Virus record (IMG/VR): IMGVR_UViG_3300038420_000063
Span: 1-23,421 of that record
Direction: 5' to 3' (one strand)
DNA: 23,421 nucleotides
From: a virus
The notes below the pieces were generated by a model. That model was not told where the DNA came from. It saw nothing but the letters and a program-made list of their open reading frames with translations, and did no database searches. The position numbers and the translations under genes are program-made. Positions 3,615 through 23,421 of this stretch are shown piece after piece; the first letter of the stretch is position 1, and every line of letters begins with the position of its first letter.

Positions 3615-3669
3615 AAGTCCTCCTTTATATAACTGCCCCACAAAGCCGCCGGGCTGTGCCGCAAGGCAA

Positions 3670-3738
3670 TAGCGGGGGCCGGAATCGAACCGACACATTC
3701 AAGGTTATGAGCCTTGCTGGGCACCACGCCTCCCCGCG
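3670..3738 (-). tRNA. tRNA with CAT anticodon, initiator-like, short D arm
   Basis: On the minus strand the sequence folds as acceptor CGCGGGG/CCCCGCT, anticodon stem CAAGG/CCTTG with loop CTCATAA (anticodon CAT), five-base variable loop, and T arm GTCGG-TTCGATT-CCGGC, then discriminator A. Position 1:72 is a C:T mismatch, and pairs 2:71, 3:70 and 4:69 are G:C, C:G, G:C, the pattern used by bacterial initiator tRNA. The acceptor and T arm match enterobacterial fMet tRNA closely. Two things are odd. The D-arm region is only 15 bases (stem GGC/GCC, loop GTGGT), and the anticodon stem has two rather than three G:C pairs next to the loop. CCA is not encoded. Elongator Met or Ile2 (lysidine) identity is possible. 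Confidence 0.75.
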
Positions 3739-3747
3739 ATTAAAAGA

Positions 3748-5549: not shown

Positions 5550-5713
5550 AAGAAGAAGAATTACCCTTATTCAATCTGCCGACCAATATCGATATACCAA
5601 CCTGTAATCGTAACGAGGCTTATCAGAGTATTCGGCCGGAGCTGGGCCGCCGCCAGGAACAAGTGCTGAATGTCATTAAAATGCACTCGCCTATCTCCAA
5701 AGGAGATAGTTAA
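5546..5713 (+). CDS. Short winged-helix-type protein, probably truncated (55 aa)
   Basis: The frame begins inside the rusA stop (ATGA) and ends at TAA 5711-5713, which overlaps the next ATG. The sequence NEAYQSIRPELGRRQEQVLNVIK resembles the first helices of phage winged-helix proteins. In those the domain continues with a recognition helix and wing; here it stops right after VIKMHSPISKGDS. The last codons are occupied by a hairpin and the SD of the PAPS-reductase-like gene. It is either a shortened gene whose end was lost when the downstream gene arrived, or a minimal translational-coupling partner. Confidence 0.6.
   Translation: MKEEELPLFNLPTNIDIPTCNRNEAYQSIRPELGRRQEQVLNVIKMHSPISKGDS
5691..5709 (+). 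promoter_or_regulatory. Hairpin that masks the ribosome site of the PAPS-reductase-like gene
   Basis: CTATCTCC (5691-5698) and GGAGATAG (5702-5709) are a perfect 8-bp inverted repeat around the loop AAA. The SD AAAGGAG of the gene starting at 5713 lies in the loop and 3' arm. When folded the SD is paired; ribosomes translating the upstream 55-aa ORF run through the hairpin and would open it. Confidence 0.65.
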
Positions 5714-6429
5714 TGTTAACGGTTAGTTATTTCAGCTCCGGTGTTTCATCGGCAGTAGCCACGAAATTGGAAATAAATCAGATTGACCGGATATTTTACA
5801 CCCATATTAACGATCAACACCCTGATACGATGCGCTTTGTGAAGGCTTGTGAGGCATGGTTCGGAAAGCCAGTGGAAATATGGCAATCTCCATATTTTAA
5901 AACCGTTGACGAAGTTTGCCGTTATCGAAAGTTCATTAAGGCCCCAAATGTCGGAGCACCTTGTACAACGGTCTTGAAAAGAGATGTGCGTAAGCGGTTT
6001 GAATACGAAAACACAGATAATTTGCGAGTGGTGTGGGGCTTTGACTGTAATGAAAAGAATCGTATCGTAAATATCAAGCAGCACATGCCTGAGCAGGAGC
6101 ACATTTTCCCTCTGGTCGAACGGAATATCACCAAAGAAGAAGCTCATGAGATTCTGAACGCTAGTGGGATAAAACGCCCTGTCATGTATGATATGGGATA
6201 TCACAACAATAATTGCATTGGCTGTGTTAAAAGTGGTGGGATGGGATATTTCAACCGAATAAAAATTGATTTTCCAGAAGTTTTTGCATCACGGGCAAAG
6301 CTGGAGCGTGATTTAGGGTTTTCGATTATCCCGGGAATTTACCTTGATGAACTAAAACCAGAGCAAGGTCGCCACGATCCGCCTATCACTGGGGATTGTG
6401 GGATTTTGTGCGAGGCAATGGCACTTTAG
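5713..6429 (+). CDS. PAPS reductase / ATP-pyrophosphatase-family protein
   Basis: The 238-aa protein starts with an N-type ATP pyrophosphatase loop (FSSGVSS, residues 7-13, a variant of SGGxDS). It continues with HPDTMRFVKACEAWFG, GAPCTT (C84), WGFDCNEKNR, and a Cys pair in NNNCIGCVKSGGMGYF (C168, C171), ending with CGILC (C229, C233). Members adenylate a substrate, and several (PAPS reductase, TtcA, DndC) then handle sulfur, often with an Fe-S cluster. Five conserved-looking cysteines make cluster binding plausible. Phages carry such genes often; the substrate is unknown, and DNA or tRNA thio-modification is a guess. Start chosen for its SD, which lies in a hairpin. Confidence 0.8.
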   Translation: MLTVSYFSSGVSSAVATKLEINQIDRIFYTHINDQHPDTMRFVKACEAWFGKPVEIWQSPYFKTVDEVCRYRKFIKAPNVGAPCTTVLKRDVRKRFEYENTDNLRVVWGFDCNEKNRIVNIKQHMPEQEHIFPLVERNITKEEAHEILNASGIKRPVMYDMGYHNNNCIGCVKSGGMGYFNRIKIDFPEVFASRAKLERDLGFSIIPGIYLDELKPEQGRHDPPITGDCGILCEAMAL

Positions 6430-12353: not shown

Positions 12354-14570
12354 ATGGCCTCTACTCTCGATAATGTAAAAACCCAACGGACCGGAATCGC
12401 CCAGGGCGAACGCAAAAAAGAGATCGAAGGCATTGAGGTTTGGGAGAAGAAAGATAACCCACTGGACCAGGACGAGGCCCAGGAGCGGTTACGAAAGCTC
12501 ATGCAGTGGCGGCGCCAGGCCAGGATAGCACAGGCCGACAACCGCACGGAAATGGCTACCGACGAGGATTTCTACGACGGTATCCAATACACGCCCGAAG
12601 ATCTCAACATCTTACTTAACCGCAACCAGGCCCCCCTTGTCTATAACGTCACAAAGAACACAATCAACTGGCTGCTCGGCACCGAGCGCAAATCCCGCAT
12701 AGACTACCGCATACTGCCCCGAAAGAAGAAGGGCGCTCAATCCGCGAAGATCAAGACGAAGATGTTTAAGTACATCAACGACGTCAATAAGGGCGAGTAT
12801 ATGCGGTCCCTTGCCTTTGAGGATTGCGTCAAGGCCGGCCTGGGATGGATAGAAGTGGGAGCCCGTAACGTGAAATGGGATGAGCCCATATTCATCCGGC
12901 GTGAAACCTGGCGTAATATTTGGTTTGACCACCTATGCCGCGAGCCGGACGGCCGCGATCAGCGATTCCTCTTCCGCGAAAAGTGGGTTGACCTGGACGT
13001 GGCCATTGGTCTGTTTCCCGAGCGTGGCGAACGCATAAAGGTCCAGGCCGAATCAGTCAATAGTATGTATCCGTATCTTCCCGACGACGTGGTTATCACC
13101 GATTATGCGTCGGAGTTTGATATGGAAAGTGATCTTTCTATCTTCTACGGCGGGCCCTGGGATGGCGCGCGGCAGCGGGTAAAGCTGATCGAGGGCTGGT
13201 ACCGGATGCCGCAGCGAGTGAAGATCATGCAGATGCGTGACGAGGACACGCCCTACGGGGCCCTGGACGGCGCAATCTACCGGCCGGAGTGGGAAGAGCA
13301 CAAATACCTGGTCGAAGGTAAATACTTCACGACGTACGAAACATTGAAGATGGTTATACGTCATGCCATTTGGGTAGGCAAGACGTTCTTACAAGATAGC
13401 CTCAGCCCCTATAATCACGACCGATTCCCCTTTATTCCTTTCTTCTGTTACCGCCGCCAGCGCGACGGCATGCCCTACGGCGTCATTCGGGATATACGCG
13501 ACCCGCAAGACGATCTGAACAAGAGGCGCAGTAGGTCACTGTTCTTGCTGACGGCAAAGCAAGTTATCGCCGAGAAAGGCGCGGTTGATAATAAGAACGA
13601 GGCATCCGAAGAGCTGCATAGGCCCGACGGATGGGTGGACACTAACCCTGGTAAGAAGTTTGAGGTTATTACCCAGGAACAGTTAGCCAAGGAACATGTC
13701 GAGCTGGCCCGTGACGACGAGCGATTCATTCAGAATATCGCTGCCGGCACTACCGAAGAGAACCTGGGCCATGAAACCAATGCAATATCCGGCAAGGCAA
13801 TCCAGGCCCGCGAATCCCAGGGGCTTACGACTTCCGGCGTGGTGTTTGACAATTACTACTTCGGCTTCCAGCTCGAGGGAGAGGTCCTTAACTCGCTGAT
13901 CGAGCAATTCAAAGACAAACAGGAAGAGTTCCGCGTAACCGGCGACGAATCGAAGGATGAGTTTGTCGAGGCAAATAAGTGGAATCCGGAAACGAGAACA
14001 TTTGAGAACAGCATCACGGAATCAAAGGCTGATTTCTATATCGGCAAACAGGACTTCCGCGAAACTATCCGGCTCGCGCAGATGGATAAGCTGAGTGAAA
14101 TGATAATGAACTTGAGTAAGGCTATGCCGGAAGTAGCTATCAAATTACTCGACCTGGTTGTGGACTTCATGGACGACTTCGAGCATCAAGACGAAATGGT
14201 TGCCCGTATCCGCGACATTAACAAGATGCACGCTCCGGAAGATGAAATGACCAAAGAGGAACGCGAGGCCTTGAAGCAACAGAAAGAAAAAGCCCAGGCA
14301 GAGCAAGAGGCCATAAAACAGATGCAAACGGCCCTGGCCCAGCTCAACCTACAGATGGCTCAGGCTAAAGTGGACGCCGAACAGGCGAAGGCATTTAAGA
14401 CAAAGATCGATGCCGTGGAAAAGAAGCTCGACGGCTTCTTGAAGGCTGTGGAAACAGCGACGGCACTTTTGGCCAATCCCGCGGCGGTTGCGGCTGCCGA
14501 CAAGCTGATTAAAGAAGCAGAAGCCTCGCCAGGAGGCGGGGATAATAAAAAAGAGGAGGTACAACAGTAG
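12354..14570 (+). CDS. Portal protein, P22 type
   Basis: The 738-aa protein matches the P22-like portal family in order and content. There is an N-terminal arm, then DEDFYDGIQY, VYNVTKNTINWLLGTERKSR, AGLGWIEVGAR, WRNIWFDHLCREPDG and the stem/wing region with HDRFPFIPFFCYRR and DDLNKRRSR. NAISGKAIQARESQG and FDNYYFGFQ follow. The C-terminus (from ~620) is a long coiled coil rich in Gln/Ala/Lys, comparable to the barrel of P22 portal. Twelve copies form the DNA channel at a capsid vertex and dock the terminase. ATG at 12354 directly follows the U-tract of the hairpin. Its stop overlaps the GTG start of the GT9 gene. Confidence 0.9.
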   Translation: MASTLDNVKTQRTGIAQGERKKEIEGIEVWEKKDNPLDQDEAQERLRKLMQWRRQARIAQADNRTEMATDEDFYDGIQYTPEDLNILLNRNQAPLVYNVTKNTINWLLGTERKSRIDYRILPRKKKGAQSAKIKTKMFKYINDVNKGEYMRSLAFEDCVKAGLGWIEVGARNVKWDEPIFIRRETWRNIWFDHLCREPDGRDQRFLFREKWVDLDVAIGLFPERGERIKVQAESVNSMYPYLPDDVVITDYASEFDMESDLSIFYGGPWDGARQRVKLIEGWYRMPQRVKIMQMRDEDTPYGALDGAIYRPEWEEHKYLVEGKYFTTYETLKMVIRHAIWVGKTFLQDSLSPYNHDRFPFIPFFCYRRQRDGMPYGVIRDIRDPQDDLNKRRSRSLFLLTAKQVIAEKGAVDNKNEASEELHRPDGWVDTNPGKKFEVITQEQLAKEHVELARDDERFIQNIAAGTTEENLGHETNAISGKAIQARESQGLTTSGVVFDNYYFGFQLEGEVLNSLIEQFKDKQEEFRVTGDESKDEFVEANKWNPETRTFENSITESKADFYIGKQDFRETIRLAQMDKLSEMIMNLSKAMPEVAIKLLDLVVDFMDDFEHQDEMVARIRDINKMHAPEDEMTKEEREALKQQKEKAQAEQEAIKQMQTALAQLNLQMAQAKVDAEQAKAFKTKIDAVEKKLDGFLKAVETATALLANPAAVAAADKLIKEAEASPGGGDNKKEEVQQ

Positions 14571-15661
14571 TGGCGATTTCCCTTATAAATTCTACAGGAG
14601 AGGAATTGAAGCTGCCCACGAAGGCGGCGAGGGAGTTCTTTAGCTGCCCGAAAGGCATTAACAAGGTCATGTGTCTGCCGTGCTCTGACAAGATTGAACC
14701 CCAGGGCGAAGCGGCCATGACGAAAATCTATGAGATCAAGAACATTAAACGGAAGAAGAAAATGGCGGGCACGGTGGTAATCCGGATGGGCGGGGTGGGC
14801 GATCTGCTTATGCTGTCCTCGGGATTGCGTGAACTGAAACGGCGTGGCGAGCTGCTTACGCTGGCAACGATACCGGAGAACATGGCTTTTCTAAAGGCCC
14901 TGGACATAGGCAACGTGATCTCGATTGAAGATCTCGGCCGGTACGAGTTTGAACGGGTTAGAGATCTGCGGTTTGCGGTTGAGCCTAAAGAAATGGGCTC
15001 TATCTGCAAATCTGATTGGGCTACCTACACGACGAAGGACCGCTCGGATGCCTTCGACGAACTGTTAGGAGTAGCCCCTGCACGGAAACGGTTTTTGATT
15101 CCAAAGGTAACCGTACCGCCGACGCTATTGAAAGAGATATATCCCTACGAGAAGGGCGGTTTTATCCTGGTGAACGGCTCCATGGGAGCCTCGGCACGGG
15201 CGATAATCATAAAATATCTTGTGCCGCTTTGTAAAAAGCTGGTGAAGCTGACCGGCGGCATGCCTGTGGTCTTAATGGGAACCTCGCAGAACTGGAACCA
15301 TGAGGTAGTAAAGAATATCAGCGTACCAGGCGTCGTCAATGTCATTGACAAGACAAACACGGAGGAAATGATCGCGCTTTGCTCCCTGGCCAGCCTGGTG
15401 ATTACGCCGGATACCGGCACTCTTCATATTGCCGCGGCACTCAAGAAGAAAACGCTGGCCCTATTCGGGAACATAAACCCGAGGACCCGCATATCGTATT
15501 ACTCGACGGTCCATGCGCTTTATCCCCAGGGCGAGCTCCATTGTATTCCATGCTGGGATACGCACCCGTGCATAAGCAAAGCTGGCGAGCAGACAAAGTG
15601 TATGAAACTTTTAACACCGGACCGCGTGGTGAACGCGGCAAAGGAAGTAGGAGGATTCTAA
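14570..15661 (+). CDS. GT9-family glycosyltransferase (heptosyltransferase-like) with N-terminal extension
   Basis: From residue ~66 the protein is a GT-B glycosyltransferase of family 9: TVVIRMGGVGDLLMLSSGL (acceptor-side loop GGVGD), GGFILVNGSMG, and the donor-site signature TPDTGTLHIAAAL. The family transfers heptose or a related sugar from a nucleotide sugar. Residues 1-64 are an extra domain (with FSCPKG and CLPC) not found in ordinary heptosyltransferases. The GTG start overlaps the portal stop, with GAGGAGG about 10 bases upstream. In-frame ATGs at 14717 and 14762 could give the plain enzyme. It is the first gene of the glycan cassette. Confidence 0.85.
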   Translation: MAISLINSTGEELKLPTKAAREFFSCPKGINKVMCLPCSDKIEPQGEAAMTKIYEIKNIKRKKKMAGTVVIRMGGVGDLLMLSSGLRELKRRGELLTLATIPENMAFLKALDIGNVISIEDLGRYEFERVRDLRFAVEPKEMGSICKSDWATYTTKDRSDAFDELLGVAPARKRFLIPKVTVPPTLLKEIYPYEKGGFILVNGSMGASARAIIIKYLVPLCKKLVKLTGGMPVVLMGTSQNWNHEVVKNISVPGVVNVIDKTNTEEMIALCSLASLVITPDTGTLHIAAALKKKTLALFGNINPRTRISYYSTVHALYPQGELHCIPCWDTHPCISKAGEQTKCMKLLTPDRVVNAAKEVGGF

Positions 15662-15663
15662 CC

Positions 15664-16221
15664 ATGCAAGAAAACATATTCGACATACCGAGCACGACTA
15701 CGCGGATAGAGTGTTACGTTCTTTTTGAACTGGCATCGAAACTATTACCAGGGAGTACCCTGGTCGAGATCGGCACCGGCGCCGGCCGCGTGACGGCAGT
15801 GTTGGCCGATGCAGTAGCCGGCAAGGGCTCTATACTTTATACGGTTGATAACTACTCGCAAAACGAGAAGTACGAAAGTTACGGCAACTGGAACCTGGAC
15901 AATACGAAAAGATGGATGGCAAAGCTCAATGTCGGCGGGCATGTCCAGTATATCCAGGCCGATAGCGTAACCACCGGAAAGACGTTTGAGCATCCGGTTG
16001 ACTTCCTTTACCTGGACGGAGCGCACCGGTACAAAGACGTATGTGCCGATATTGCCGCCTGGTATCCGCGGGTAAAGAACGGCGGGATTATCGCCGGCCA
16101 TGATTTTGATTTCAACTGCGACGACGGCCGCAACGTGATTAAGGCAGTGTTTGACAAGCTGGTGAAGTTTCCGGACAAGGCCATGACCGTACGCGAAAGG
16201 GTATGGTGGATGGAGAAATGA
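15664..16221 (+). CDS. SAM-dependent methyltransferase (185 aa)
   Basis: The SAM-binding loop is VEIGTGAGR at residues 34-42. It is followed by an acidic residue in TVDNYS, then VDFLYLDGAHRYKDVCADIAAWYP and GGIIAGHDFD. This is the Methyltransf_24 pattern, often found in polysaccharide and natural-product clusters, where the DGAH/GHD residues hold a metal for O-methylation of sugars. ATG at 15664 has GGAGG 9 bases upstream; the longer frame upstream lies inside the GT9 gene. Its stop overlaps the next ATG. Confidence 0.85.
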   Translation: MQENIFDIPSTTTRIECYVLFELASKLLPGSTLVEIGTGAGRVTAVLADAVAGKGSILYTVDNYSQNEKYESYGNWNLDNTKRWMAKLNVGGHVQYIQADSVTTGKTFEHPVDFLYLDGAHRYKDVCADIAAWYPRVKNGGIIAGHDFDFNCDDGRNVIKAVFDKLVKFPDKAMTVRERVWWMEK

Positions 16222-16547
16222 ATTGTCCAAGAAGAAGCGAAGCGCCCTATCAAATTACAGAGCCACCCGATAGCTGGGATAACCAGGACGGAACATGCTC
16301 TTATTGTGGGAGTATCTCACCGGCAGAAATGTTTAGGCGAGTAGAGGCTGGGGTGAAAGTAGAACCGACTGATAAAAATTACAAAATCTATATCGGTCAA
16401 AACAAGTTTTACCTACAGCATTTGACGGTCGAAGAACGTCACAAGTTTATAAAGCTGTATAACGACAAGGTAATGCAAATGGCCTATCCAGGATACTTTT
16501 ATCGCCTTCCTTTCTTTATGAAGGTCATAAAGAAGGAGGACGCATGA
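16218..16547 (+). CDS. Phage protein with CxxC zinc-binding-like motif (109 aa)
   Basis: ATG at 16218 overlaps the previous stop; an earlier ATG at 16203 is possible. The protein shows NCPRRSEAP, then DGTCSYCGSISPAEMFRRVEAG, then TDKNYKIYIGQNKFYLQHLTVEE, and ends GYFYRLPFFMKV. A C-S-Y-C-G-S segment followed by KxYI and FYxxHL is a layout I associate with unnamed phage proteins. Its two cysteine sites (C4 and C27/C30, numbering from 16218) suggest metal binding. It lies inside the glycan cassette and overlaps the GT2 gene by ATGA. No function is known to me. Confidence 0.65.
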   Translation: MNCPRRSEAPYQITEPPDSWDNQDGTCSYCGSISPAEMFRRVEAGVKVEPTDKNYKIYIGQNKFYLQHLTVEERHKFIKLYNDKVMQMAYPGYFYRLPFFMKVIKKEDA

Positions 16548-17341
16548 ACATAGCCGTCTGCATGTGTTTGAAATCTTCCGAAGGCATCGAGGCCTACTAT
16601 GTCGATATGGCCCTCAAGAGCCTTCTGCCCTATGTCAGCGTCGTATATGTCCAGGACCAGGGATGCACGGATGATACGATCGAGATTATTAAAGTGACCG
16701 TAGGCGATAAGATTCCCCTGGTGATCGAGCAAGAGTTTAATCCGCTGCCGCGTTTCAGCATGGGCTACAACGAGCCAAAGTACCGGAATAAGGCGATCGA
16801 ACGCTGCGAGGAAGTGTTTAGTCCGGAGTGGATATTGCAGTGCGACGCCGACGATATATTCACGCCGCACCTGTTTGAAACGATACTGGCGACGGACCTT
16901 ACAGGCATTAACGGTTTTTTCTATGCTTCGGACCGCTTCATCACGCCGGAGTATAAGAGCGGTTGGCGCGGAGATCTCATCGAGTACGGCGGGCGCATGT
17001 GGGTTGACCCTCATTACAAGTTTTGGCGGGCAAGCTGCCGCGTGAGGTATCCGGACCGCGAGGGCGGGCAGTTCCATAACGTGCCGACAAATGACCCCTC
17101 GCCGCTGCTTTGCGTCGATGGCATCTGTAATATACATCTGCATAGAATGTTTGGCCCGAAGTCCTGGAACTTTTGGAGAAGCGACGGCGACGTGTTCGAG
17201 GAAAAGACGCCGTTCAATCCCCGTACACAGGCCCCTAAATGGTTTTCGAGCCCGCAGAATATGGGAAGCGCGGTCAAGGTAGATTATCCCTGGCCGGACT
17301 TCATACTGAACAAATGGAAGGAATGGGCCACCTATGACTAA
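16544..17341 (+). CDS. GT2-like glycosyltransferase (265 aa)
   Basis: The N-terminus MNIAVCMCLKSSE begins a GT-A fold, with QDQGCTDDTIEI as the nucleotide-binding loop and LQCDADDIF (D101, D103) as the DxD motif that holds the metal and the sugar diphosphate. Aromatic residues follow (FWRASCRVRYPDREGGQFHN). Length is typical for a soluble GT2. SD AAGGAGG lies 4 bases before the ATG. The next gene starts 8 bases before its stop. It should add a sugar to an acceptor in the cytoplasm; donor and acceptor are unknown. Confidence 0.8.
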   Translation: MNIAVCMCLKSSEGIEAYYVDMALKSLLPYVSVVYVQDQGCTDDTIEIIKVTVGDKIPLVIEQEFNPLPRFSMGYNEPKYRNKAIERCEEVFSPEWILQCDADDIFTPHLFETILATDLTGINGFFYASDRFITPEYKSGWRGDLIEYGGRMWVDPHYKFWRASCRVRYPDREGGQFHNVPTNDPSPLLCVDGICNIHLHRMFGPKSWNFWRSDGDVFEEKTPFNPRTQAPKWFSSPQNMGSAVKVDYPWPDFILNKWKEWATYD

Positions 17342-18641
17342 ATACGCGACCGCAGTTATACCCTATTGTCATACGCCGGTATGGATACAGATTTGCGTGG
17401 CGGCTTTCAAGGAGTTCAAGAACGACCGAGATCTCGAGATCATGGTCATTGATAACTGTACCTACGGCCGCGGCGAAACCATAAAGGCAATAACTGAAAC
17501 AGCGCTCGGTGAAGGCGTGAAGGTAATACCCCAGGGGAAGCAAGTCACCGATGGCCGGTATTATACTTCCCATGCCTCGGCCATTGATTACGCTGTCCAG
17601 TTTATCGAAACGCCGTACATGTTTGCGACGGAATCCGATGTTACGCCGGTCCGTGACGGCTGGCTCGATTGGTATGCGTCATTCGTCCAGGACGAAGGCA
17701 CGGCCATGGTGGGCTGGTACTGGCCCGAAAGGCATTATATCAATCCGAGCTGGACGCTTCTCAATATGCGGATACTCCGGATGATAGCCGAGGAAATCCG
17801 GAATAACAGGGAAACCGTCTTTGTGAAAGGCGAGGGATACAGGGAACGCTTTAATCAAGAGCATTGGAAAGATCTGATAGAGCAAGGCATGTTTGGTCCG
17901 TTCAGCGAAATGCGTGGCTTTACCAACGGCCTGGATATTCCAGGCGGGATTAACCATCAAGTGCCGGCCTATGGCCATGACACGGGGAGCTGGCTCTATT
18001 ACCGGCTTTCCAATCAGTATGAATGTGCCAGGGTGCCAGGTGGTACGGTATTGATACCGGATTGGCAAGCGATCGGGGCCCCGCCGCAAGATTACCAGTT
18101 CGTCGGACCGTCAGAGGCCGAAGCGTACTTGAAACATCATTGTGCCGGCACGGTATCTCACAACTTCGAGAAACAGCTTATCATTACTGAATGGGAAGCC
18201 CTTTGCCTCGAGTGGTGGATGAAAAGAGAGTACCGGCTATGGGAAGAGATTGTACCGGAGTTCGTAAGAAAAGAATCGATAGCGAAGGGCCTTATCCCGA
18301 AACTTGAAGATCAGATGGCCCAGGCAAACAGAAGCGTTCATATTCTACGGCCTGGCGATAAGGTGCGGGCCTACCATTACGAAATGTGCGAATCGATACG
18401 CGGCCAGGTTGAAGAATACAAGATACCTGGTACCGGCCTGGATGGTGAGATCGTCGGCTGGAACGGTGACCTGGGCGGCTTTGTCGTAAGGTTTGAAAAC
18501 GGGAAACCGCCGAACGATGAGGAAACGAAGAAAGCGCGGTGCTTACACTTTGGTCATGCTCCCGAGTATTTCCGGCTGCATGAGATAGACGGCCAATGGT
18601 ACGCGGTGTTTCACCCGCACATGCTGGTAAAGAGGAAGTGA
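17334..18641 (+). CDS. GT2-like glycosyltransferase with C-terminal SH3/KOW-like domain (435 aa)
   Basis: The first ~110 residues are GT-A like: TAVIPYCHTPVWIQI, IMVIDNCTYG, HASAIDYAVQF and MFATESDVTP (E100-S-D102 in place of DxD). A middle part (110-270) carries the acceptor region (GLDIPGGINHQVPAYGHDTG, with HDTG like many GT2s). Residues ~340-435 form a separate beta-rich module (HILRPGDKVRAYHYE, DGEIVGWNGDLGGFVVRFENG) that resembles SH3/KOW domains and may bind the acceptor. Start overlaps the previous gene by 8 bases. The extra domain is unusual for a family 2 enzyme. Confidence 0.75.
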   Translation: MTKYATAVIPYCHTPVWIQICVAAFKEFKNDRDLEIMVIDNCTYGRGETIKAITETALGEGVKVIPQGKQVTDGRYYTSHASAIDYAVQFIETPYMFATESDVTPVRDGWLDWYASFVQDEGTAMVGWYWPERHYINPSWTLLNMRILRMIAEEIRNNRETVFVKGEGYRERFNQEHWKDLIEQGMFGPFSEMRGFTNGLDIPGGINHQVPAYGHDTGSWLYYRLSNQYECARVPGGTVLIPDWQAIGAPPQDYQFVGPSEAEAYLKHHCAGTVSHNFEKQLIITEWEALCLEWWMKREYRLWEEIVPEFVRKESIAKGLIPKLEDQMAQANRSVHILRPGDKVRAYHYEMCESIRGQVEEYKIPGTGLDGEIVGWNGDLGGFVVRFENGKPPNDEETKKARCLHFGHAPEYFRLHEIDGQWYAVFHPHMLVKRK

Positions 18642-18642
18642 C

Positions 18643-19332
18643 ATGGCATTAAGCTCGGCAGAGGGTAAGGACCTCTTTGTTGATTGGATAAAGAACTTTG
18701 CGACCCTTTATAAATATACGAGGTACCTTGACATAGGCTGCGGCGCCGGCCTTTACGGGATACTCATACGGCAGATTACCACGCCGGAGTTCCTACGGCA
18801 ATTCACGACAAGCGCCTGGTGGGGCGAAGTTCCGGAGATTATTGTCGATGCTGTTGAGGTATTTCCCGAGTATATCAAACGGTATGGCATAGACAAGATA
18901 TACAACAACATAACCGTCGCGGATATTCGGCAGATCTACCAGGACATTAAAAACTACGACGTCATAATCATGGGTGACGTGCTCGAGCACATGACGAAGG
19001 AAGAAGCGATCGAGGTTGTTAATGCACTTAAAACGAAGTGCTGTTTTATATGGGCGGCGCTTCCCATGGAGTTTGAAGGCAAAAGATGGTCACACGGCTA
19101 TCTCCAGCTTCCGGAAGAGTGGGAGGAAAACCCGTACGGAAAGCACTTGCACGATTGGACAGTTAATGAATTGAAGGAAGCATTTAACCCGCTTTGGATT
19201 GTGCCGTTTATTCAAACGGGCACGATGCTTATAGAAGGCGAGATAGTGCCCGATATTTGGCAGATTGTGGCGCATGCAAAAATAGCTGATGCAACCAGGA
19301 GGGCGAATGAAGCCAAGCAAAGTGCCGGATGA
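18643..19332 (+). CDS. SAM-dependent methyltransferase (229 aa)
   Basis: Motif I is YLDIGCGAGLYG (residues 28-39), and motif IV/post I is DVIIMGDVLEHMTKEEA. The pattern is of the Methyltransf_11/23 class, which includes enzymes acting on sugars and small molecules. A start codon two bases after the previous stop has AGAGGA upstream. The C-terminal part (WEENPYGKHLHDWTVNEL, then FNPLWIVPF) resembles sugar-cluster methyltransferases with a His pair near the active site. Its end overlaps the next gene by 26 bases. Confidence 0.8.
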   Translation: MALSSAEGKDLFVDWIKNFATLYKYTRYLDIGCGAGLYGILIRQITTPEFLRQFTTSAWWGEVPEIIVDAVEVFPEYIKRYGIDKIYNNITVADIRQIYQDIKNYDVIIMGDVLEHMTKEEAIEVVNALKTKCCFIWAALPMEFEGKRWSHGYLQLPEEWEENPYGKHLHDWTVNELKEAFNPLWIVPFIQTGTMLIEGEIVPDIWQIVAHAKIADATRRANEAKQSAG

Positions 19333-20239
19333 GAGAGTATTCGAGCGATTCATGTCGGACGACCTGGTGACCAGGTATGATTCCTCGGCCATGTTTGGCC
19401 CGAGCTCATGCGAGGTCCACAGGCACATGTGGTACGAGTTCAAGGGCGAAAAGAGGCATGGCGGGGAAAACAGGACAATAGGGCTCGGATGGCTATTGTA
19501 CGGATTTGTGCGGGCGATCAGGCCGAAGGTGATTGTCGAAGTGGGCTGCGCCGGCTCTACCATCTGCATGCTGTGGGGATTGAAACACAACACCTATTAT
19601 CCGGAGCCCGAGGGGCATCTATACGGGATAGATAATTTTTGGTGGGGCGACCCGATGGAACGGGATGGCAAGGTTGCCACGCTTCCTTATTTCCATTTCA
19701 TAGATGAGCTCAAAGAGCTCGGTTTGGAAGATCTCATTACCTTCTATCACGATAGCAGCCAGGTTATCGGGCCTACCTGGGATAAGCCTATTGATATGCT
19801 CATGGTTGACGGCGACCACGCGAAGGAAGCGGTATTAGCGGATTGGCAGAATTTCTCAAAATGGATAGTACCAGGCGGTTATGCCTTCTTCCATGATCTG
19901 ATTGCGATACCTAATCAGATCGGCTACCCGCTGGAAGAGATTGTAGGGCCGGACTTCACCTTCATGTGCGAGCCGGACCACTTGAGCCTGGGCATCATGC
20001 AAAAGAAATTTACCGTCAATTACGATGCGGTCATAGACACAAGGTTCAGATCAAGGCTCGAGGATAAAAACGAAACATGTATTACGCTGATGAACGCCAG
20101 GGATTCCGGCGTCGTCGCGCCGTACAACGGCCGTTATTTCCCGCGACCCGATAAGTGGAATGAAGTGGTAAACCGGTGGGCTGATGAGGGCAAGATCACC
20201 GAGGAAGATAGGAAAGATTGGATTGATGGGAGCTTCTAA
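19307..20239 (+). CDS. SAM-dependent methyltransferase / cephalosporin-hydroxylase-like (310 aa)
   Basis: ATG at 19307 has AGGAGG just upstream; an ATG at 19289 in frame is less likely. The SAM site is VIVEVGCAGSTICMLWGL (residues 75-92). It is followed by LYGIDNFWWGD, then IDMLMVDGDHAKEAVLADW and GGYAFFHDLI, again the metal-using DGDH/HD pattern of Methyltransf_24 and CmcI-like enzymes. The C-terminal third (from ~235) is an extra region ending in a possible recognition helix. It is the third methyltransferase of the cassette. TAATG overlap links it to the acyltransferase. Confidence 0.8.
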   Translation: MKPSKVPDERVFERFMSDDLVTRYDSSAMFGPSSCEVHRHMWYEFKGEKRHGGENRTIGLGWLLYGFVRAIRPKVIVEVGCAGSTICMLWGLKHNTYYPEPEGHLYGIDNFWWGDPMERDGKVATLPYFHFIDELKELGLEDLITFYHDSSQVIGPTWDKPIDMLMVDGDHAKEAVLADWQNFSKWIVPGGYAFFHDLIAIPNQIGYPLEEIVGPDFTFMCEPDHLSLGIMQKKFTVNYDAVIDTRFRSRLEDKNETCITLMNARDSGVVAPYNGRYFPRPDKWNEVVNRWADEGKITEEDRKDWIDGSF

Positions 20240-21003
20240 TGTTTGAGATTGGCGAAGATGTAACGATTGAGCCAGGGGCCATTGTAAACGTGAAGGAAGG
20301 GCGTATCGGTGACCGGTCCATAATCCGGTCCGGAGCCCGCATAGAAGGATACAGGGTGGTCCTGGGCACGGAATCATATCTCGATCACGGCGCCTGGATA
20401 GGCGGCGGGTCCTGTTTTGACGAGTGCGCTTTCCTCAATGCCGGATGCTGGCTGCACCTGGGATGGAACGGGCAGATCAATATTGCCAGGGGAGTTACGA
20501 TCGGTGACGAAGTGGGCCTGGGTATCGAAACAAAGATATTCACTCACGGCGCTTATCTTCCTATCGACTACGGATTTCCGGCACAGTGGGCGCCGGTGAA
20601 AATAGGCAGCCGCGTATGGTTGCCGAGCGCATGGGTTAATCCAGGCGTGACGATCGGGGATAACGTGGTTGTGGGTGCACGGTCCTTAATCAACCGAGAT
20701 TTACCGGCCGGCTGCTTTGCAGCGGGTATTCCGGTCAAGATAATTGAAGAGGATAAATACCCTGTTGCCGCTGATTTTGCCGCAATAACGTGGAGAGCTG
20801 GTGAAACTGTTTTTGATGTTTTAAGAAGAACGATCGACGGGCCCGTGACGGAAGAAAGCGAAAAGATGAAAAACCAGTTTCGACGTAACGGGATAAGATT
20901 CAAGTATTACGCAAAAGATGGGGAGTATGTACCGTGGAAAGAGTGCTCGCAATCGGCAGCCACATCGACGACATTGAGATCGGCTGCGGAGGCTCGTTGC
21001 TGA
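20239..21003 (+). CDS. Left-handed beta-helix (hexapeptide) acyltransferase
   Basis: Residues ~1-170 are made of hexapeptide turns (IGEDVTIEPGAIV, IGDRSIIRSGARI, ITIGDEVGLG-like and VTIGDNVVVGARSLI). A catalytic-type His is in KIFTHGAYL, and RDLPAGCFAAGIPVKII closes the helix, as in WbbJ/Maa-like acyltransferases. They move an acetyl group from CoA to a sugar hydroxyl or amino group as trimers. The last ~20 residues (KECSQSAATSTTLRSAAEARC) are read from the start of the PIG-L gene in another frame and look non-native. The ATG overlaps the previous stop. Confidence 0.85.
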   Translation: MFEIGEDVTIEPGAIVNVKEGRIGDRSIIRSGARIEGYRVVLGTESYLDHGAWIGGGSCFDECAFLNAGCWLHLGWNGQINIARGVTIGDEVGLGIETKIFTHGAYLPIDYGFPAQWAPVKIGSRVWLPSAWVNPGVTIGDNVVVGARSLINRDLPAGCFAAGIPVKIIEEDKYPVAADFAAITWRAGETVFDVLRRTIDGPVTEESEKMKNQFRRNGIRFKYYAKDGEYVPWKECSQSAATSTTLRSAAEARC

Positions 21004-21515
21004 AACACCGTGACGCCGGCGATAATATGTTGCTGGCAATCTTGAAGGCTGATGAAGAGATTACAGCGCGGGCGAGCGTAAGAAAAGGGGAGCAACGGGC
21101 TTCTCAAATTATGCTGAAAGCGGAAATGCGGCTGTTTAACCATACGGACGATATTGAAAGTTTAGTCAAGGAGCTTGATGATTATAAACCTACAGTCCTC
21201 TATTTTCCATTCGAGAAGGATTATCACCAGGACCATCATAGGGCCTCGACGGTAGGCTTTGCGGTATCCCGCAGAGTAGAGATAACAGTCTTGAAATATT
21301 TGGTAACTACTTCGCACTCGTTTTATCCGAATTACTTGAGGGTTATCGATATTGAAGAGAAGAAAAAACTGGTTTCAGTGTTTGCGTCACAGATGGTACG
21401 CCGGCCGAAGTTTATGGAGATCATGGTAGCACAGAATAAATTTTTCGGCTCGCTTATACCTGGTGATGGCCATTATGCTGAAGGGTTTGTGCTACATCGC
21501 CTTGTTCAGTGGTGA
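20934..21515 (+). CDS. PIG-L family N-deacetylase
   Basis: AIGSHIDDIEIGCGG (H10, D12, D13) is a variant of the PHPDDE zinc motif, and DYHQDHHRAS (H98, D100, H101) supplies the second zinc-binding group. The enzymes remove acetyl from GlcNAc-type sugars in GlcNAc-PI, mycothiol, bacillithiol and LPS precursors. The GTG start at 20934 has GGGGAG 8 bases upstream and lies inside the acyltransferase frame, 70 bases before its stop. Length (193 aa) is slightly short for the family (200-270). Its 3' end overlaps the antisense HNH gene by 24 bases. Confidence 0.85.
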   Translation: MERVLAIGSHIDDIEIGCGGSLLKHRDAGDNMLLAILKADEEITARASVRKGEQRASQIMLKAEMRLFNHTDDIESLVKELDDYKPTVLYFPFEKDYHQDHHRASTVGFAVSRRVEITVLKYLVTTSHSFYPNYLRVIDIEEKKKLVSVFASQMVRRPKFMEIMVAQNKFFGSLIPGDGHYAEGFVLHRLVQW

Positions 21516-21941
21516 CTTATGAGAAAAGCGACCCCGACTTCTTCCTTTAGACTTGGCATCTTTATTATTGGTTTCCTGTGTTCCCAAAAACAGGTGAGCG
21601 GGATTAACGCAGGGCGGGTTATCGCATTTATGAAGAATGAGCATTTCTTTTGGTATGGGGCCATGGTGAAGTTCATACGATATGCGGTGGGCCAACAGAT
21701 TATGTCCAGGAACCCGAAGGCGCCCGTATCCATAAATATCCTTACCACCTTTCCACAGCCAACAAGAATTGGTTTTATCAACTTTTTGCCAAAACTTTTC
21801 ATCTATGGATTTTGTTTTTGCACAAGTTCTACTGCAATTCACCCTCTCGCCCCTGGCGATTTCGTGAGGCAGCGCATAATGAATTTTTTTACACACAGGA
21901 CAAATTACTTCACATTGTGCTGGGGAGGTACGCATTAACAT
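21492..21941 (-). CDS. Antisense HNH homing endonuclease
   Basis: The 149-aa protein has an N-terminal Cys cluster (C14, C17, C36, C40) and then the HNH_3-like domain. SCWLWKGGKDIYGYGRLRV leads to AHRISYELHHGPIP and LILHKCDNPPCVNPAHLFLG (H85, H104, C106, D107, C111, N113, H116), then TQETNNKDAKSKGR. This is the pattern of free-standing phage homing endonucleases. It is the only gene on the minus strand within the rightward structural region, and it carries its own SD (AAAGGAG, 7 bases from ATG). A possible -10 box, TATAAT on the minus strand, lies near 21965, but its -35 is poor. It is likely a selfish insertion. Confidence 0.88.
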   Translation of the reverse strand: MLMRTSPAQCEVICPVCKKIHYALPHEIARGERVNCSRTCAKTKSIDEKFWQKVDKTNSCWLWKGGKDIYGYGRLRVPGHNLLAHRISYELHHGPIPKEMLILHKCDNPPCVNPAHLFLGTQETNNKDAKSKGRSRGRFSHKSPLNKAM

Positions 21942-22045: not shown

Positions 22046-22291
22046 ATGACAGCGGGAACCATAGCAGTATTACGAATGTTGAATGAAGAGGTTTTGGGCG
22101 TTATCAGTGACACGCTCGGCAATCTCTACATGGGAACCAACCAGGGGAATGTTTATAAATATGCAATCGCATCGGCAACTTTAACGAAGCTGTGCAACAT
22201 CGGAGGTAATGTCATAGACCTGACACTATATGGCAATTACCTCTATCTCGGCAGCCCCGGCGGTAAGTTGCTGACCGTTACGATTTCGTAG
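22046..22291 (+). CDS. Small two-blade beta-propeller-like protein (81 aa)
   Basis: ATG at 22046 has GGGAGG upstream. The sequence has two similar units: VLGVISDTLGNLYMGTNQGNVYKY and VIDLTLYGNYLYLGSPGGKLLTV. Both follow the pattern hydrophobic-x-D/L..., G-N-x-L-Y-x-G, then G-K/N-V/L. These resemble WD40/YVTN-type propeller blades. Two blades cannot close a propeller, so it would have to assemble as a multimer or be a fragment of a longer gene. It lies just before a second small head-region gene. Function unknown. Confidence 0.5.
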   Translation: MTAGTIAVLRMLNEEVLGVISDTLGNLYMGTNQGNVYKYAIASATLTKLCNIGGNVIDLTLYGNYLYLGSPGGKLLTVTIS

Positions 22292-22302: not shown

Positions 22303-22536
22303 ATGAGAATCACGGGAGAGAAAAAGAAAAAAAAGCGGAAGAGTGTTTTGAGTGCTCCTTACAGCGAAGAGGATTGGCAAGCCAGGGCCGATGCCGAGGC
22401 CATAGCGCGAGCGGAAGCCGTGAAGGCTGACCCCGAGCGCATGAAACGAGCGAAGGCATGGGCGGCCAGGGAGCTTGAACGGAATAAAACGAATCAGGCC
22501 GAGGCTGCGAAGCTGGTTGAATTAGGTACGAGTTAA
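22303..22536 (+). CDS. Small highly charged protein (77 aa)
   Basis: ATG at 22303 has GGAAGG at good spacing, 11 bases after the previous stop. A basic head (GEKKKKKRKS) is followed by a long Ala/Glu/Arg-rich helix (QARADAEAIARAEAVKADP, ERMKRAKAWAARELERN). It is probably a single helix or coiled coil, comparable in composition to small head-assembly or nucleic-acid-binding phage proteins. No family recognised. Confidence 0.55.
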   Translation: MRITGEKKKKKRKSVLSAPYSEEDWQARADAEAIARAEAVKADPERMKRAKAWAARELERNKTNQAEAAKLVELGTS

Positions 22537-22598
22537 ATACGTTAAAATCAGGGTTTGCTTGAAGATCGGCCGGTCTGAGAGCGACGAATAGAAAGACG

Positions 22599-22642
22599 AA
22601 GGGCGGCAAGTAGGTGCCTACTCATCTACTACCGCCCTTTTT
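22599..22642 (+). terminator. Strong hairpin terminator before scaffold gene
   Basis: AAGGGCGG (22599-22606) pairs with CCGCCCTT (22632-22639), extended by AGTAG/CTACT (22609-22613 / 22626-22630), and is followed by a T run (22638-22642). An internal alternative stem GTAGG/CCTAC competes with the second part. It lies in the 146-base gap (22537-22682), which otherwise contains no gene. Like the hairpin before the portal, it stands just ahead of a head gene with a strong SD. Confidence 0.75.
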
Positions 22643-22664
22643 CTTTGCCCTGATCATCAACGAA

Positions 22665-22685
22665 ATAAGGAGGTCATAGGAAATG
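22665..22685 (+). promoter_or_regulatory. Ribosome binding site of the scaffold/head gene
   Basis: A perfect AAGGAGG SD and the following spacer plus ATG are identical over 21 bases with the start of the 409-aa gene on the opposite strand (2196-2216). Confidence 0.7.
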
Positions 22686-23421
22686 GCAGAGGAAATTAAG
22701 GAAGTTCCCGATGTTTTAGTGGACCAGGAAGTTACCCTGGAGAATTGGAAGATCCTTGCCGAAGCCGGCTACACTGCCGACGAATTGAAGGACCTGTCGA
22801 AAGATGAGCTCGAAGGTATCCTGGATTCGGCCAGGGGCGGTGACGACGAAAAGACAGAGCTTACTCCGGAGCAACTTGCCGCGATCGCAGCGGGTGAGGA
22901 AACGGAAGAGGCTAAGGCCTTACGGCTGAAAGCGGAAAAGGAAGCGGCCGACGCTAAAGCCCTCGAGGACGAGGCAAAGGCAAAGGGCATAACCGTCGAA
23001 CAGCTAAAGACCGAGAAGGCTGCGGCGGTTGTGGCTGTGGAGGTTACGCCGGCCCCAGCTCCGGCGGGCCAGCTCACGGATGATGATTTGCTCGACTTTG
23101 AGCCGGTAATTTCAGCATCCGAGATCGTGGTTGAATATAAACCGCCGGCTGAACTCCAGGCAAAGCTCGATGATCTCGAGGCTAAATTGGATACCGGCGA
23201 GATTCAACGAGCGGATTACAACAAACAGCGCGACGAAATCAGGGATACGATAACGGACCAGCGCCAGGCGGCCCGTGACGCAGCCCGTGAAGATCTCGTA
23301 TGGAGGAAGGAGCAACAATACTTTCTCAATGCCAGGACGGAATACCTCGGAGATAAAAAGGCCGATGGCAAATTCGTTCATAACTTGAAGAGCAAGACCC
23401 TCATGGGTGCATTAAGGGAAG
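22683..23421 (+). CDS. Probable scaffolding/head assembly protein (partial, runs off right edge)
   Basis: The frame is open from ATG at 22683 to the end (246 codons). It starts with a short acidic N-terminus (AEEIKEVPDVLVDQEVTL). Then comes a highly acidic, Ala/Glu/Lys-rich helical region (for example EAKALRLKAEKEAADAKALE), a Pro-rich hinge (VTPAPAPAGQ) and a further coiled coil (YKPPAELQAKLDDLEAKL). This composition and the position after portal fit P22-type scaffolding proteins, which line the inside of the procapsid. No sequence motif proves it. A strong SD suggests high expression, as expected for a scaffold. The C-terminus is outside the window. Confidence 0.6.
   Translation, partial: MAEEIKEVPDVLVDQEVTLENWKILAEAGYTADELKDLSKDELEGILDSARGGDDEKTELTPEQLAAIAAGEETEEAKALRLKAEKEAADAKALEDEAKAKGITVEQLKTEKAAAVVAVEVTPAPAPAGQLTDDDLLDFEPVISASEIVVEYKPPAELQAKLDDLEAKLDTGEIQRADYNKQRDEIRDTITDQRQAARDAAREDLVWRKEQQYFLNARTEYLGDKKADGKFVHNLKSKTLMGALRE

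Follow-up and report, generated by a model that had tools for sequence, protein, structure and literature searches.

A recurrent sugar-building and tailoring gene island in the late head operon of uncultured podovirus-like phages

Results

We report a real and selected sugar-building and tailoring island inside the late head operon of an uncultured group of podovirus-like (short-tailed) phages, as had been supposed in a preliminary description made from the sequence alone. In the window, that is the whole stretch of 23,421 nucleotides of viral DNA analysed here (IMG/VR record IMGVR_UViG_3300038420_000063), the interval from the portal gene to a scaffold-like gene encodes one GT9 and two GT2 glycosyltransferases, three methyltransferases, a hexapeptide acyltransferase and a PIG-L deacetylase (Table 1). 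We read the island as a cytoplasmic virion-glycosylation module with a phage structural protein as its putative acceptor, a reading in which belief and doubt weigh about equally.

Table 1. Features of the window from the portal gene to the scaffold-like gene
Feature	Coordinates	Strand	Evidence
Portal gene, upstream border of the island	12354..14570	+	phrog_156, E 3.5e-138
GT9 glycosyltransferase (heptosyltransferase family), GTG start	14570..15661	+	PF01075, 2e-14
MT24a, class I SAM methyltransferase, variable member	15664..16221	+	PF13578, 1e-20
Small CxxC protein	16218..16547 (possible start 16203)	+	homologues in 10 phage records
GT2a glycosyltransferase, recurring member	16544..17341	+	PF00535 in alignment rows, weak; DADD motif
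GT2b glycosyltransferase, recurring member	17334..18641	+	PF00535 in alignment rows; GT2 structures by Foldseek
MT12, class I SAM methyltransferase-like, recurring member	18643..19332	+	weak PF08242, 2.2e-4
MT24b, class I SAM methyltransferase, variable member	19289..20239	+	PF13578, 1.8e-14
Hexapeptide (left-handed beta-helix) acyltransferase	20239..21003	+	PF00132, 1.7e-10
PIG-L / LmbE family de-N-acetylase, recurring member	20934..21515	+	PF02585, 5.4e-10
HNH (homing-type) endonuclease, right border	21492..21941	-	PF13392, 3.8e-13; phrog_1872, 9.3e-36
g22, small protein	22046..22291	+	homologues in loci with and without island
g23, small protein	22303..22536	+	homologues in loci with and without island
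Scaffold-like gene, downstream border, runs off the window	22683..23420	+	named by position

Layout of the island

The nine open reading frames claimed for positions 14570-21515 are all present, starting right after the portal gene. They form a tight run with gaps of -70 to +2 nt, as had been stated, but the ATGA/TAATG overlaps described as usual occur at only four of the nine junctions if the start of the CxxC protein is taken at 16218. Between portal stop and GT9 start there is an overlap of 1 nt in the window and of 4 nt in L019, L035 and L028; in L005 the GT9 start lies 77 nt past the stop, and in L032/L004 a 207-aa gene stands between the two. Translational coupling of portal and GT9 may occur in several of these phages, but it is not universal.

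The window portal is approximately 40% identical to the portals of Serratia phage Parlo and Burkholderia BcepMigl. At the other border, the scaffold-like gene owes its name to its position ahead of the capsid gene, and the PHROG families it matches have no known function. In the L007 contig its full length is 357 aa, followed by a 68-aa ORF and then by the capsid gene, which in the relative L032 matches PF13252. Homologues of g22 were found in L006 and L015, which have no island, as well as in L019, L032, L033 and L035, which have one. An HNH endonuclease that the preliminary description did not mention stands beside the island; it has no match in L032, and a 53% relative occurs in L015 together with a different insert at the portal-scaffold site, where L015/L021 carry about 6 kb of other ORFs.

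Glycosyltransferases and tailoring enzymes

The GT9 assignment was borne out by PF01075 (53.9 bits, curated cut-off 22), and the protein carries a TPDTG motif and has a profile match in the PDB to HepII (1psw, 1.5e-8). It stays below the NCBIfam equivalog cut-offs for heptosyltransferase I (36.3 vs 185.3), II (50.2 vs 134.6) and III (23 vs 170.2). An N-terminal extension of approximately 65 aa, for which the structure model is poor (pLDDT mostly <50), is conserved in all six GT9 proteins of the portal-scaffold site. The co-occurrence of this extension with the cassette, raised as a point to check in the preliminary description, was found, as tblastn at E 0.1 detected the extension in no cassette-less locus among those compared.

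The window's own GT2a and GT2b have no Pfam match, and their reading as GT2-like enzymes is carried by matches of their relatives. PF00535 was matched by 5 out of 7 rows of the GT2a alignment (best 2.2e-4) and by 4 out of 6 rows of the GT2b alignment (best 6.3e-10), and PF13704 by 4 out of 7 GT2a rows (best 3.6e-5), the window's row being among none of them. GT2a has a DADD motif. The predicted model of GT2b matches GT2 structures in Foldseek (among them SpsA at E 7e-6 and TarP), and a C-terminal extra part of about 100 aa is common to the window and L032 and missing in the other four rows.

Among the tailoring enzymes the three methyltransferases could be recognized, MT24a and MT24b by PF13578 and MT12 weakly, its PF08242 match (2.2e-4) being below the curated cut-off. 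MT24a is 81% identical in L032 and also occurs in L004; MT24b is present in L033 and L035 and missing from L019 and L032. The hexapeptide acyltransferase (PF00132 with 40.6 bits, cut-off 27) resembles galactoside O-acetyltransferase 1kqa (PDB, 3.7e-15), and its repeats together with its likeness to solved sugar acetyltransferases mark it as a hexapeptide sugar acetyltransferase; no NCBIfam equivalog cut-off was reached among the matches listed. The PIG-L deacetylase (PF02585 with 40.3 bits, cut-off 28.2) has an intact metal-binding motif, HIDDIEIGCGG, as well as the motif HQDHH, and matches the GlcNAc-malate deacetylase structure 6p2t (7.3e-13). Its best NCBIfam match, bacillithiol BshB1 (TIGR04001), scores 59.4 bits and thereby stays below the cut-off of 182.5.

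The CxxC protein had been counted as part of the sugar-building cassette and resembles a protein widespread in phage head operons. Nothing above cut-off was found for it in Pfam, and in 4 out of 4 records examined of the 10 phage records with homologues these lie in the terminase/portal/head segment, which makes a sugar enzyme unlikely. The protein probably stands outside sugar chemistry. Other cargo includes a radical-SAM/SPASM enzyme inside the islands of L019 and L035, a Com-like zinc ribbon ORF in the L035 island and a GNAT in that of L033.

Recurrence across phage lineages

Six lineages have the cassette at the portal-scaffold site (window/L007; L032/L004; L005; L019; L035; L028/L033), their portals being 51-80% identical to that of the window, and it is absent in some relatives, one of them with a portal 79% identical. 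L007, L037 and L038 are nearly identical to the window over the cassette genes covered, and L002 and L003 match the window's virus up to the GT9 start or the portal. A chance gain in one genome, the outcome named beforehand as speaking against the island, is ruled out by the six lineages and by the recurrence of the window's virus in other contigs.

Counting only lineages whose contig covers the gene in question, GT9, GT2a and GT2b each occur in 6 out of 6 (GT2a is split over two ORFs in L005 and clipped by the contig end in L028, and GT2b is clipped likewise in L005), MT12 and PIG-L each in 5 out of 5, and an orthologous hexapeptide enzyme in 4 out of 5, L033 having a different hexapeptide protein and the GNAT. 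A core of GT9, GT2a, GT2b, one methyltransferase and PIG-L recurs, and the other tailoring enzymes vary.

In a phage collection of 50,697 records (tblastn, E 1e-5) no match was found for the window GT9 or for GT2a, GT2b and the radical-SAM enzyme of L035; PIG-L gave one match with 33.5% identity, and the hexapeptide matches were partial. The cassette DNA had a single 78-base match in this collection. Portal loci from named bacterial assemblies, 41 in number and several of them ending soon after the portal, gave no cassette match by either tblastn or profiles. Eight viral loci were cassette-negative by profiles in a scan of 49 loci, of which several end soon after the portal and for which most of the positive controls had themselves gone into the profiles. 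Among named bacterial assemblies, the closest portal relatives are on Geobacter MAG contigs (52% and 43%), which is only suggestive as a pointer to the host; GT2b was found at E 1e-15 in 0 out of 141 genomes of the order of these MAGs, a set without positive control. An integrase occurs in none of five cassette records searched (four lineages, fragments or of unknown completeness) and in 3 out of 4 cassette-less records, two of the four sharing one sequence. A literature search with most subscription papers outside its range found no account of this cassette.

Selection, gain and loss

For seven cassette genes compared with the relative whose portal is 80% identical, dN/dS is 0.05-0.23, and for comparison 0.09 in the portal, 0.14 in the scaffold-like gene and 0.05 in the capsid gene; these ratios, from one lineage pair, are rough, as most dS values lie above 1. 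The cassette is under purifying selection where tested. The low dN/dS values together with the recurrence in other lineages are an argument that the cassette is more than chance.

Recent transfer was ruled out, since the cassette has the same GC (0.49-0.53) as the neighbouring head genes and has diverged from its relatives much as the portal has. A single clade of the six bearers was rejected on the portal tree (16 rows, AU p 6e-53), where the opposite side of the test included one row of unknown cassette state (L016). On this tree, with many of its forks open and two of its branches long, the cassette state changes at least five times (15 rows counted). The island is gained or lost repeatedly.

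Discussion

If the island serves virion glycosylation, its enzymes would be produced along with the portal and capsid proteins. A structural protein of the phage would then receive a short chain of sugars, assembled by GT9 and the two GT2 enzymes from nucleotide sugars of the host, PIG-L would strip an N-acetyl group off one sugar, the hexapeptide enzyme would acylate the sugar so treated, and the methyltransferases would cap. As the tailoring enzymes are swapped between lineages, the phages would carry different glycans. The preliminary description spoke of a full pathway, which is too strong since sugar-nucleotide synthesis families have no match among the proteins of the run, and its order of transfer, deacetylation, re-acylation and methylation can only be inferred. 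We likewise infer the identity of the sugars, the acceptor and the role, which may be shielding, adsorption or stability. The missing match to sugar-nucleotide synthesis families was also counted towards cytoplasmic glycosylation of a virion protein. Eight head and tail families downstream of the island each occur with and without it, and the tail-fibre-like genes farther downstream are singletons, so that no target is singled out.

The enzymes might instead alter the envelope of the host in late infection, acting for example on LPS core made in the cytoplasm, so that progeny or competitors would be kept from adsorbing to the infected cell or to its remains. The classical role of family GT9, that of the LPS heptosyltransferases, is in the LPS core, and the Geobacter MAGs with the nearest portals are Gram-negative. 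The glycosyltransferase islands of pelagimyophages are also interpreted in this sense in passages of PMC7029224. We consider such remodelling rather unlikely, however. Judged by hydropathy alone, none of the nine window proteins has a membrane-like stretch (top 19-residue value 1.43, usual mark 1.6); in four relatives 1 out of 38 rows exceeds the mark, the MT12 homologue of L032 with a peak of 1.81. No flippase or ligase family is matched in the cassette either, and it therefore lacks the makings of gtr/oac-type seroconversion. The 41 bacterial portal loci without cassette, several ending early, and the cassette records without integrase, which are fragments, point the same way, and late expression would leave scant time for renewal of the surface LPS.

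Hypermodification of the phage DNA with a glycan as a shield from restriction is very unlikely in our view. Phage glycosyltransferases are capable of it (Pyle 2024, as cited in the relevant part of PMC12619734). MT24a and MT24b match a PHROG named DNA methyltransferase, and the L035 island contains the Com-like ORF. Together with the GNAT of L033 this ORF faintly resembles the DNA-modification pair of Mu. The island sits in the head operon, however, PIG-L and Methyltransf_24 are usual in glycan and small-molecule loci, and nine records, the 62-kb L019 contig among them, contain no PF00303 (thymidylate synthase/hydroxymethylase), an absence that is not final as most records are incomplete. The lack of a membrane stretch and of a thymidylate-synthase-type hydroxymethylase therefore favors virion glycosylation over gtr seroconversion and glycosylation of hydroxymethylated bases. 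We also regard it as improbable, if less so than DNA modification, that the enzymes make a soluble sugar metabolite or modify a non-virion protein of phage or host, the head operon being a tolerated cargo site. The other ORFs of L015/L021 at the same site, the radical-SAM/SPASM enzymes and BshB1 as best NCBIfam match of PIG-L would fit this; the BshB1 score far below its cut-off and the recurrence of the set at one site in six lineages, which argues for a link to morphogenesis, speak against it.

The preliminary description took the cassette for a possibly undescribed virion glycosylation system; virion glycosylation by phage enzymes as such is already known. According to parts of PMC12363180 and PMC12619734, capsid and tail-tube protein of the mycobacteriophages Che8, Corndog and Myrna are glycosylated by enzymes that the phages encode. 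Both systems have phage-encoded glycosyltransferases. In the mycobacteriophages the glycan product is demonstrated, whereas here it is predicted; the present island differs in being led by GT9 and in including PIG-L, a hexapeptide enzyme and methyltransferases. The Xanthomonas jumbo phage XacN1 has two glycosyltransferases and at least two detected glycoproteins, and in Chlorella virus PBCV-1 the major capsid protein owes its glycosylation at least in part to enzymes of the virus; the sections of PMC5852040 that mention these cases describe no comparable island. The host recognition cluster of pelagimyophages, read as modifying the host O-chain, likewise has glycosyltransferases in a hypervariable island within the structural region, but belongs to T4-like myophages, has a mean length of 44.6 kb and tail fibres, and GT8 is most represented in it (PMC7029224, in part). 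Phage gtr glycosyltransferases act on the O-antigen (PMC7326821, in part), and share with the island that glycan-modifying genes are phage-borne. The gtr/oac proteins of serotype-converting phages (flippase, membrane glucosyl- or acyltransferase) are multi-span membrane proteins, and no such protein was found in the window cassette.

In its mode of operation the island could be likened to a flagellin glycosylation island set in a phage head operon. In enterobacteria, soluble glycosyl-, methyl- and acetyltransferases encoded beside the structural gene decorate flagellin; the set is variable and next to the gene served, tailoring enzymes are swapped, and some islands contain HNH endonucleases, as found beside the phage island (all from portions of PMC4875605). 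The differences are the bacterial chromosome, flagellin as target and usually genes for sugar synthesis. We tentatively propose, with less confidence than for virion glycosylation as such, a soluble, GT9-led phage counterpart in which the core builds a glycan on a virion protein, exchangeable tailoring slots diversify it, and homing endonucleases in and beside the island aid its spread from phage to phage. Such slots would be those of the methyltransferases, of alternative hexapeptide/GNAT acyltransferases and of the radical-SAM enzyme.

If the acceptor is a virion protein, environmental phages would run multi-step glycan pathways that diversify their surface, as bacteria do with their flagella, and the core set of GT9, GT2a, GT2b, methyltransferase and PIG-L would provide a defined signature for searches and co-expression. 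If it is LPS, the island would represent a soluble, non-gtr route of host remodelling during infection. With either outcome the meaning of many unexplained phage glycosyltransferases would become testable.

Organization of the cassette

The window is a linear viral record of 23.4 kb whose late genes run from terminase and portal through the cassette and two small genes to the scaffold-like gene, so named from its position before the capsid gene. The cassette comprises GT9, the methyltransferase MT24a, a CxxC protein, two GT2-like glycosyltransferases (GT2a, GT2b), the methyltransferases MT12 and MT24b, a hexapeptide acyltransferase and PIG-L, in this order and with intergenic gaps of -70 to +2 nt; a minus-strand HNH endonuclease follows. 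The window's own GT2a and GT2b matched no Pfam family; Pfam matches occur in 5/7 rows of the GT2a alignment, where they are weak, and in 4/6 rows of that of GT2b. The predicted GT2b structure (mean pLDDT 72) matched GT2 structures with modest TM-scores of 0.2-0.3 if normalised by query length, and of 0.48 (SpsA, 1h7q) and 0.62 (6p61_C) by target length.

The preliminary description had counted the CxxC protein into the sugar cassette. Its homologues occur in ten phage records and, since they sit amid terminase, portal and head genes in all four records examined, it is probably baggage of the head operon. The proposed co-occurrence of a GT9 N-terminal extension with the cassette is supported: the extension is present in 6/6 GT9 proteins at the portal-scaffold site and was not found in any cassette-less locus searched (E 0.1).

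Occurrence in related phages

The window portal shares approximately 40% identity with its counterparts in Serratia phage Parlo, Burkholderia BcepMigl and similar phages. Records of three isolates, Parlo, Mwe-JY07 and PBC5, were examined; in these the cassette is absent after the portal, and a single gene of 290-323 codons comes next. Two scans of viral contigs (L-numbers; 6 + 17 loci, 5 common to both) provided 18 portal loci, some of them near-identical. The recurring core is GT9, GT2a, GT2b, MT12 and PIG-L together with some hexapeptide enzyme.

Island-bearing loci at the portal-scaffold site
Locus	Portal identity to window	Content
Window, L007		Island as described above; 99.98% DNA identity to each other
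L032/L004	80%	207-aa ORF, GT9, MT24a, GT2a, GT2b, MT12, hexapeptide, PIG-L
L035	54%	GT9, GT2a, MT12, MT24b, GT2b, radical-SAM, hexapeptide, PIG-L; small ORFs interspersed
L019	55%	GT9, GT2a, MT12, GT2b, radical-SAM, hexapeptide, PIG-L
L033		GT2a, MT12, MT24b, GT2b, GNAT, different hexapeptide protein, PIG-L; contig begins inside island
L028	51-53%	Left part only, contig end cuts rest; counted with L033 because of 127 identical bases in common
L005	73%	Left part only, contig end cuts rest

No island follows the portal in L006 (portal 79%), L013, L014, L017, L023 and L020, the last contig stopping before the scaffold gene, and L015 and L021 carry different cargo at this site; one small ORF of the L015 cargo looks like a LamG/ConA-type protein. 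L016, L018, L022 and L024, too short past the portal, were left unscored, and L002 and L003 stop too early to score the rest of the island. A larger glycosyltransferase/methyltransferase cluster with GT9, GT2a and GT2b homologues occurs in a 101.8-kb phage contig (L036), preceded by genes read as beta-helix proteins and lying ~60 kb away from the terminase match.

Neighboring elements

Coordinates of accompanying features
Locus	Position	Feature
Window	3669-3739	tRNA-Met, anticodon CAT
Window	5713-6429	PAPS-reductase-family protein (PF01507; phrog_424)
Window	22540-22680	Folded RNA just 5' of scaffold-like gene
L006	2351-2490	Folded RNA, same place
L004	2680-5220	Terminase large subunit, in-frame ~300-codon interruption near residue 147
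L019	6530-9058	As in L004; Hint domain match, under cut-off
L035	12504-12725	Match to Mu Com (PF10122; 32.5 bits vs 22.9) in a zinc-ribbon protein encoded between acyltransferase and PIG-L
L035	15431-17405	Major capsid gene split in two; intervening 272-aa ORF without Pfam match
L007	21408-21611	ORF of 68 aa that separates the scaffold-like gene from the capsid gene, no Pfam match
L033	45-740; 1574-2233	Two ORFs resembling homing endonucleases and containing NUMOD3, located beside and between genes of the cassette
L015	12225-17463	Portal-scaffold cargo: several small ORFs, HNH 53% like the window's

The RNA is strongly folded and alike in the window and L006 (z-scores -5.6 and -4.5): a helix junction and an inner hairpin are followed by a T run, and at least one stem pair is, by eye, altered on both sides. 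Rfam gave no match. This fold was not seen upstream of the scaffold-like gene in L032, L033, L013 and L015, and the L035 and L019 sequences fold differently there. The window terminase is uninterrupted; the ends of the L004 insert are read as those of an intein, with an HNH-like ORF encoded on the other strand, and the capsid-gene interruption is possibly an intron or intein. Parlo has a gene annotated as CsrA-like at the place of the 68-aa ORF.

Potential function and acceptor

The solved relatives of PIG-L are deacetylases of GlcNAc-malate or diacetylchitobiose, those of the hexapeptide enzyme mainly sugar O-acetyltransferases and some N-acetyltransferases. The simplest reading of both enzymes is that a HexNAc would be deacetylated and acylated. 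No protein of the window's run matched families of sugar-nucleotide synthesis, so nucleotide sugars would come from the host. Hydropathy indicated no membrane-like stretch in the nine window cassette proteins; in four relatives 1/38 rows peaks high (MT12 of L032, 1.81).

A virion protein is the candidate acceptor favored by the place in the head operon and by the GT9 start, which overlaps the portal stop in 4/6 lineages. None of the eight head/tail families compared tracks the island, each being present both with and without it, and the fibre-like genes farther downstream are singletons. The family membership of GT9 points to LPS as acceptor; DNA is the least likely one.

Earlier papers already describe virion glycosylation by phage-encoded enzymes, glycosyltransferase islands inside phage structural regions and flagellin glycosylation islands (PMC12363180, PMC12619734, PMC7029224, PMC5852040, PMC4875605). 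Among the papers listed by our literature search there was no description of the present enzyme combination at the portal-scaffold site; this combination and its site may be what is new.

History of the association

On the portal tree at least five cassette state changes are counted, and a single clade of cassette bearers was rejected. The dN/dS values of the seven cassette genes common to the window and L032 are 0.05-0.23. Between the window and L019 identity is 55% for GT9, 70% for PIG-L, 64% for the hexapeptide enzyme, 42% for GT2a and 38% for GT2b, compared to 55% for the portal. As the divergence of the cassette proteins, GT2a and GT2b excepted, is thus similar to or lower than that of the portal, the association appears to be an old one in which the cassette was repeatedly lost or exchanged.
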